Source: Candidatus Nanopelagicaceae bacterium
GTDB taxonomy: Bacteria > Actinomycetota > Actinomycetes > Nanopelagicales > Nanopelagicaceae
Assembly (NCBI GenBank): GCA_009694285.1
Contig: SHVK01000004.1
Span: forward strand, 1 to 64,000
DNA length: 64,000 nt
Reading direction: 5' to 3'
The notes under the pieces are model-generated. The model had not been told where the DNA came from, did no database searches, and saw only the letters and a list, made by a program, of their open reading frames with translations. Position 1 is the first letter of the stretch. Every line of letters begins with the position of its first letter. Position numbers and translations under genes: made by a program. Below, one piece after another: positions 15,908-16,189 of the stretch.

Positions 15908-15952
15908 AATTTAACTTTATCCCTAATCTTTAGGAAAAAAGTAAAAATAAAA

Positions 15953-15982
15953 GATGGCTCCCCTGCAAAAGGAGGAGCCATC
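15953..15982 (-). terminator. Rho-independent terminator after the tRNA-like gene
   Basis: On the minus strand the perfect 9-bp arms GATGGCTCC and GGAGCCATC (15953-15961 and 15974-15982) enclose a 12-base loop and are followed by TTTTATTTTTAC. It lies 11 bases after the 3' end of the tRNA-like gene and before the DUF4236 gene. It shows that the tRNA-like locus is organised as a transcription unit of its own. Confidence 0.85.
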
Positions 15983-15992
15983 CCGCTCAACG

Positions 15993-16066
15993 AACCCCTG
16001 GCGGGAATCGAACCCGCTGCCGTAGCGTCGTCGCACGCTCTGCTCTATCCGGTGAGCTACAGGGGC
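15993..16066 (-). tRNA. tRNA-like gene with Arg-type body and abnormal anticodon arm (possible pseudo-tRNA)
   Basis: The minus strand shows a normal acceptor stem (GCCCCTG with CAGGGGT, first pair G-U), D arm (GCTC-ACCGGATA-GAGC) and T arm (GCGGG-TTCGATT-CCCGC). The body resembles bacterial tRNA-Arg. The anticodon arm is wrong: between base 26 and the T stem there are 23 bases instead of 22. The arm reads either as a 4-bp stem AGCG/CGCT with an 8-base loop TGCGACGA, or as AGCGT/ACGCT with a 6-base loop GCGACG. Neither has the universal U33, so no anticodon can be assigned. CCA is not encoded. A good terminator follows. The upstream flank carries an inverted copy of the D arm and a partial copy of the anticodon arm. 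It could be a decayed tRNA-Arg or a tRNA-derived regulatory RNA. Confidence 0.6.
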
Positions 16067-16077
16067 TCACCGGATAG
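16045..16077. repeat. 13-bp perfect inverted repeat spanning the D arm and 5' flank of the tRNA-like gene
   Basis: CTATCCGGTGAGC at 16045-16057 is the exact reverse complement of GCTCACCGGATAG at 16065-16077, with a 7-base loop. One arm is the D arm of the tRNA-like gene; the other is its 5' leader together with the first acceptor base. In a precursor transcript this 13-bp hairpin would compete directly with D-arm and acceptor pairing. Confidence 0.85.
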
Positions 16078-16105
16078 GTAAAATTAAATGTGATATATTT
16101 TCATT

Positions 16106-16127
16106 GCGTCGTCGCGAACGCCGCTCT
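16106..16127. repeat. Partial duplicate of the tRNA-like anticodon arm in the upstream flank
   Basis: GCGTCGTCGC occurs at 16025-16034 inside the anticodon arm and again in the same orientation at 16106-16115. Read on the minus strand, the match extends as AGAGC...GCGT(TC)GCGACGACGC versus AGAGC...GCGTGCGACGACGC, so the flank copy differs mainly by a 2-base insertion and a 2-base deletion. This GC-rich patch is conspicuous in an AT-rich spacer. Confidence 0.65.
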
Positions 16128-16140
16128 TGTTGCAAATGAG

Positions 16141-16189
16141 TAAATTAATTAACCTCCATTAAGTTATTTAACGGAGCTTAATTAATTTA
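16141..16189. terminator. Long AT-rich inverted repeat just after kynureninase
   Basis: Arms 16141-16152 and 16178-16189 are perfect reverse complements (TAAATTAATTAA). Inside them, after one C/C mismatch, CTCC pairs with GGAG, and after an A/C mismatch TTAA pairs with TTAA around a 5-base loop. In total 20 of 22 positions pair. It begins 9 bases past the kynU stop, so it probably ends or protects that mRNA, although no T run follows. A symmetrical protein-binding site is an alternative. Confidence 0.6.

Follow-up and report, generated by a model that had tools for sequence, protein, structure and literature searches.

A tRNA-shaped gene occupies positions 15993-16066, on the minus strand, of the window, that is, the whole stretch of 64,000 nucleotides (nt) analysed here (positions 1 to 64,000 of contig SHVK01000004.1, assembly GCA_009694285.1, from a Candidatus Nanopelagicaceae bacterium). 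We consider it quite likely that this gene belongs, as a diverged member, to a family of autonomous, tRNA-shaped small RNAs that do not decode and that, in the genomes sampled, are confined to the acI/Nanopelagicaceae, a freshwater group that is abundant and has small, streamlined genomes. Sequence comparison revealed the family itself, a prolonged acceptor stem, the covariation of its anticodon loop with the loop of its own terminator, an upstream DnaA box and its phylogenetic restriction. Such a family of RNAs in freshwater actinobacteria is apparently undescribed. Rfam 15 holds no such RNA beyond the tRNA model, which was also the only credible match for five relatives submitted to Rfam, and the literature within our reach (most subscription papers being outside it) contained neither a tRNA-like RNA with such a terminator nor matching small RNAs of acI.

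At the window locus, ARAGORN reported on the minus strand (15992-16066) a "tRNA-???" with a 2-base anticodon, to which no amino acid could be assigned. The Rfam tRNA model RF00005 matched 15993-16066 (43.4 bits, E 6.4e-6), and no other Rfam model, T-box included, matched the locus. Read on the minus strand from 16066 to 15993, the gene is GCCCCTG TA GCTC ACCGGATA GAGC AG AGCGT GCGACG ACGCT ACGGCA GCGGG TTCGATT CCCGC CAGGGGT T, and its parts are the following:

15993..16066, minus strand: tRNA-like body with acceptor, D, anticodon and T arms (ARAGORN tRNA-???; RF00005, 43.4 bits; family model R1, 89.2 bits over 15946-16073)
16060-16066 / 15994-16000, minus strand: acceptor stem (fold)
16042-16057, minus strand: D arm (fold)
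16024..16039, minus strand: anticodon arm AGCGT-GCGACG-ACGCT (sequence)
16001-16017, minus strand: T arm (fold)
16067..16072, minus strand: 5' half of the extended acceptor stem, CGGUGA, pairing with 15988-15993 (minimum-free-energy fold of 15985-16072)
15988..15993, minus strand: 3' half of the extended acceptor stem (UUCGUUG region), where a CCA end would be (same fold)
15951..15984, minus strand: intrinsic terminator hairpin, 13 pairs and a T-tract (sequence and fold)

A preliminary description had proposed a tRNA-like gene with acceptor, D and T arms, followed by a terminator and bearing an anticodon arm with one extra base, a 6- or 8-base loop and no U33. The cloverleaf and the Rfam match agree with the first point (the fold being read on the minus strand), the terminator is real, and the anticodon arm is as described, both in the sequence and in ARAGORN's 2-base anticodon. 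Position 26 comprises two nt (AG) instead of the usual one, and a 5-base-pair (bp) anticodon stem, AGCGT/ACGCT, encloses the 6-nt loop GCGACG, which becomes an 8-nt loop if the T-A pair opens. A sequencing or assembly error at this arm is ruled out, since a second genome (G002) carries it letter for letter. Where a decoding tRNA has a 7-nt anticodon loop with U33, and a 3' CCA or a 7-bp acceptor with a free 3' end, the window copy has 6 or 8 loop nt without U33, encodes no CCA and runs its acceptor over 13 bp, several of them G.U, into the terminator linker (in the fold from the start implied by a -10-like box). The tRNA-like fold alone is modestly better than that of shuffled sequences (z -2.15), and the fold of the whole transcript is strongly so (z -3.58).

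Searches with the window locus retrieved not Arg tRNAs, but other odd genes that share the Arg-type body and have [U/C]GAC[G/U]A-type loops; ARAGORN names these genes tRNA-Val or tRNA-???. Body and loop pattern together matched 37 of 151 genomes, and a reversed control pattern none. A covariance model, R1, was built from family members and used for wider searches, yielding 123 matches among the fetched loci, for a family of about 120 loci. At an E cut-off of 1e-18, R1 matched 69 of the 151 genomes of the order, with 1-7 elements per genome, all within the taxonomic family of the window, which appears to correspond to acI/Nanopelagicaceae (among them Planktophila, Nanopelagicus and IMCC25003). 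Nothing credible was found outside Nanopelagicaceae in samples of the class and phylum (0 other genomes among 297 sampled across the phylum), matches of about 80 bits there being tRNA-Arg genes followed by GC-rich terminators. Members score 75-139 bits, apart from most tRNAs. The window copy reaches 89.2 bits over model positions 1-128 of 128, and an intact sibling in the same genome (G000:C49) 123.9 bits.

The flanks of these relatives share two features, namely an acceptor stem prolonged by the 5' and 3' flanks and an anticodon loop complementary to the loop of the downstream terminator. In a typical member, an Arg-like body thus carries an acceptor stem of 12 bp, and CCA is absent. The structure was tested on 36 sequence-aligned members chosen without reference to the terminator. 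Pairing reached 92.6% in the extended acceptor, where both sides had changed at 10 of 12 pairs, and 91.7% in the helix between anticodon loop and terminator loop (variable pairs U-A 14, U-G 11, C-G 7 and U-A 17, G-C 12). For the structure as a whole, covariation scored 0.484 versus 0.220 in shuffles, none of 500 shuffles reaching the former value, and shifting the partners destroyed the covariation. At least 6 Watson-Crick pairs join the two loops in 52 of 108 distinct parsed members, compared to a mean of 16.7 and a maximum of 27 when loops were permuted among members (300 permutations). Unusual anticodon loops keep matching terminator loops, as in UUACUA/UAGUAA, CUCACGA/UCGUGA, UUGGCUA/UUAGCCA, CUGACGG/CCGUCAG and CUAACGCA/UGCGUUAG (as DNA, CTAACGCA/TGCGTTAG).

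These loop-loop pairs could also form in trans, the RNA dimerizing or one copy targeting the tail of another. Between the window loop with its next base (GCGACGA) and the terminator loop in G000:C49, the intact sibling, 7 of 7 positions are complementary, more than the 5 of that sibling's own loop; such a match is expected by common descent, while also allowing an effect in trans. Within single genomes, however, own loops pair in 29 of 52 cases and cross combinations in 20 of 128, so that pairing within each element is favoured, which fits a cis form or homodimers and not general pairing in trans. Pairing between molecules is hence rather unlikely in our view.

It is very improbable, given the same covariation, that the family consists of ordinary, fast-evolving Val-like tRNAs (GAC/AAC/UAC/CAC) correctly named by ARAGORN. 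ARAGORN and Rfam do call most members tRNA-Val and tRNA, with up to about 58 bits, and most have T33 and a C36 anticodon. However, separate canonical tRNA-Val genes are present, also in the genome of the window, T is frequent at position 37, anticodon stems are mismatched, the acceptor is extended without CCA, and the anticodon loop covaries with the element's own terminator, which would block decoding. The preliminary description had offered a decaying tRNA-Arg, a frameshift-type tRNA or a tRNA scaffold used for another purpose. Only the last finds support, as the homologues share a conserved, covarying, non-decoding architecture; a frameshift-type tRNA finds none, and neither does a decaying tRNA-Arg as origin, since the relatives, with their GAC/AAC/CAC/UAC/GGC-like loops, were not Arg tRNAs. 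As for a need for the gene in arginine decoding, the window's genome has canonical tRNA-Arg genes for UCG, CCU and UCU; tRNA-Arg(ACG) was not found in this 86% complete draft, and nothing suggests that the window gene replaces it.

Several observations weigh against a family of locked, non-decoding RNAs. About 40 of the 108 members score below 5 bp between the loops, and there is a subgroup of 15 loci with GCC-type acceptors that lack the loop-loop pairing. As members are related by descent, the counts overstate the number of independent events. The lowest R1 scores (75-82 bits) are also reached by normal tRNA-Arg genes of other families that have GC-rich terminators, occurrence is patchy, and no gene common to the neighbourhoods suggests a partner protein. 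Finally, the window copy lacks both loop-loop complementarity and the DnaA box, the two most distinctive traits, and could be a relic.

Upstream regions aligned on the acceptor display a -10-like box (T-16, A-15, T-11) and no -35 box. The 9-mer TTATCCACA, with at most 1 mismatch, precedes 71 of 107 members in a single orientation at -60 to -64, and in some also at -78 to -81, compared to 0.7 in shuffles. Complete genomes hold few copies of this 9-mer (5-10), clustered beside dnaA, and it is therefore the DnaA box of these organisms; in G030, one copy (442673) sits 58 bp upstream of an element (442731). Among ordinary tRNAs used as control, 10 of 222 had the box, several of these belonging to a second sub-family described below. 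This distribution suggests that DnaA may act at the upstream boxes. The corresponding places in the window are:

16075..16080, minus strand: -10-like hexamer TACCTA at the conserved -10 position of the family (position fitting the upstream conservation of 65 relatives with pairing, or kissing, loops)
16128..16136, minus strand: place of the missing DnaA box, the best match TTTGCAACA having 3 mismatches to TTATCCACA (sequence comparison)

TACCTA is a weak -10 match, not an independent promoter call; an RNA started from it would begin with the extended stem. The boxes also bear on another reading, namely that the element is a DNA-level site, for an integrase or for DnaA titration, and not an RNA. 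Integration often takes place at tRNA genes, DnaA boxes lie upstream, and members occur in tandem and in islands. We nevertheless hold this to be improbable, as the covariation is that of paired RNA, with G.U pairs and a tRNA elbow, the -10 box and terminator are oriented, and no integrase was found among the window neighbours checked (six proteins compared with Pfam, all metabolic, DUF or TPR).

The window copy could be a dead relic, a family member drifting after the loss of its DnaA box and loop-loop lock; this is a real possibility, somewhat short of probable. Its terminator loop, CTTTTGCAG, lacks the complement to the anticodon loop that most members carry, the two loops sharing 3 bp in the window copy and 2 bp in that of G002. 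The G002 copy moreover lacks 1 nt in the 3' strand of its acceptor, and its predicted fold is disturbed. The element, flanked in the window by kynureninase on one side and a DUF4236/TPR gene on the other, is absent in G013, where the same two genes are adjacent (about 70 bp between them), and from the G003 locus, which has a different gene upstream. By contrast, the body differs from that of G002 at 1 of 69 positions, compared to 24 of 222 in the non-coding flanks (Fisher p=0.013), the extended stem and terminator stem are retained, and 15 other members without kissing loops keep the box within 2 mismatches. The window copy is thus a diverged homologue and not a full member of the family, with its body and extended stem and without the loop-loop pairing and DnaA box. 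Decay within the family is possible because of these two losses. We regard the copy as an unlocked homologue peculiar to its lineage, which is either functional or decaying; body conservation mildly favours function.

Two repeats accompany the gene:

16065..16077, minus strand: inverted copy of 13 nt of the D arm (16045-16057), perfect here and imperfect in G002, overlapping the -10-like box (sequence)
16106..16127, minus strand: 22-nt, 77% direct repeat of the 3' half of the D arm and the anticodon arm (16025-16046), GCGACGACGC, also in G002 (sequence)

The first is probably not functional. As a switch, it would beat the cloverleaf only in transcripts begun upstream of the -10-like box, and the G002 copy of it is eroded. 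The second is perhaps the remnant of another copy. A 22-nt AT-rich inverted repeat (91%) also follows kynureninase at 16141-16189.

Elsewhere in the family, tandem copies 0.3-1 kb apart were observed (G022:C9:60616 and 60987; G013:C1:193003-194747), and in the first of these cases identical terminators and 3' halves next to differing 5' halves suggest recombination between copies. At some loci (L112, L113, L126, L135, L123/L124), DoxX, TspO, DCC/DUF393, mycoredoxin, photolyase-related, Fpg or LexA-type genes, linked to light, oxidative stress or DNA damage, were often seen nearby, by eye only. No partner gene recurs beside the elements across genera. A 5' untranslated leader or switch was rejected, downstream genes being co-directional in 51 cases and convergent in 54, as was a phage origin, the 7 matches in viral contigs being mostly ordinary tRNA-Arg genes.

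The same layout is found with a second, Gln/Gly-type body. Its loop UUACCAA is complementary to the loop of a downstream hairpin, several loci have TTATCCACA upstream, and the loop pairs, from few sequences, are UACCAAU/AUUGGUA, UACCAA/UUGGUA, ACCAA/UUGGU and UUGCCAA/UUGGCAA. The window's own genome carries two such genes, and further loci are L064, L189, L300 and L346:

G000:C5:418-489 (L062): Gln/Gly-type tRNA-like gene
G000:C5:3123-3196 (L075): Gln/Gly-type tRNA-like gene

An Arg-bodied tRNA-like gene with a GACUAA loop was also noticed in Eremiobacterota (L213:2393-2560), with a 15-nt inverted copy of its anticodon arm about 60 nt downstream (CCGCCCTGACTAAGC / GCTTAGTCAGGGCGG).

We propose that a typical member would have a promoter with only a -10 element, preceded by a DnaA box some 50-60 bp upstream, and that its RNA, beginning where the extended acceptor stem has its 5' base, would take a tRNA fold whose 12-bp acceptor stem lacks a CCA end. 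The terminator hairpin would then fold back, its loop pairing with the anticodon loop over 5-9 bp, which would block the anticodon and close the RNA on itself. Judging from these sequences, RNAs closed by their own tail most likely could not decode and could hardly be charged. The closed RNA would be a stable tRNA mimic, probably serving as a decoy or scaffold for a protein that binds the tRNA elbow or stem, under control of the DnaA box, so that its level would follow DnaA, i.e., the replication cycle. The window copy would retain the mimic, extended stem and terminator, having lost the lock and the box. More tentatively, and less probably than not, these elements could form a new class of bacterial small RNA with at least two tRNA bodies, private anticodon-terminator loop codes as lock, DnaA-dependent transcription coupling a tRNA-mimic signal to the replication cycle, and action in trans on locked RNAs by unlocked variants, one of them the window copy with a free loop that fits the tail of its intact sibling. 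More generally, a family of RNAs seemingly built not to decode would mean correcting the labels tRNA-Val and tRNA-??? given by gene finders, and would show evolution to have reused the tRNA fold together with its anticodon, the latter as an internal lock. Because the DnaA box has a fixed promoter position, one can test directly whether replication initiation is linked to a tRNA mimic, and the covarying loop codes provide ready-made compensatory mutants.

Family members resemble canonical bacterial tRNAs (RF00005) by their cloverleaf, invariant D- and T-loop bases, 5-bp T stem and size, and differ by a 12-13-bp acceptor, absence of CCA, an anticodon blocked by their own terminator loop, weak anticodon stems and the DnaA box. 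YrlA, a tRNA-mimicking bacterial Y RNA bound by Rsr/Ro60, is likewise non-decoding with a long terminal stem; it is not known to have a comparable loop-loop lock, and a Ro60-bound Y RNA was rejected here, a TROVE/Ro60 gene being present in 0 of 61 genomes of the family. Transfer-messenger RNA is also a tRNA-like RNA produced from its own gene, whereas the present elements have a full anticodon arm and no tag reading frame; ARAGORN found none with a tag peptide at the window locus. In T-box riboswitches, an anticodon loop is similarly read by a hairpin loop through codon-like pairing, but here both partners lie in one RNA, the terminator is the reader hairpin, and no consistent gene lies downstream. 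DnaA-controlled loci and datA-type sites also have DnaA boxes near a tRNA-type gene, whereas this family has a single oriented box at promoter distance from a small-RNA gene, repeated at many loci.
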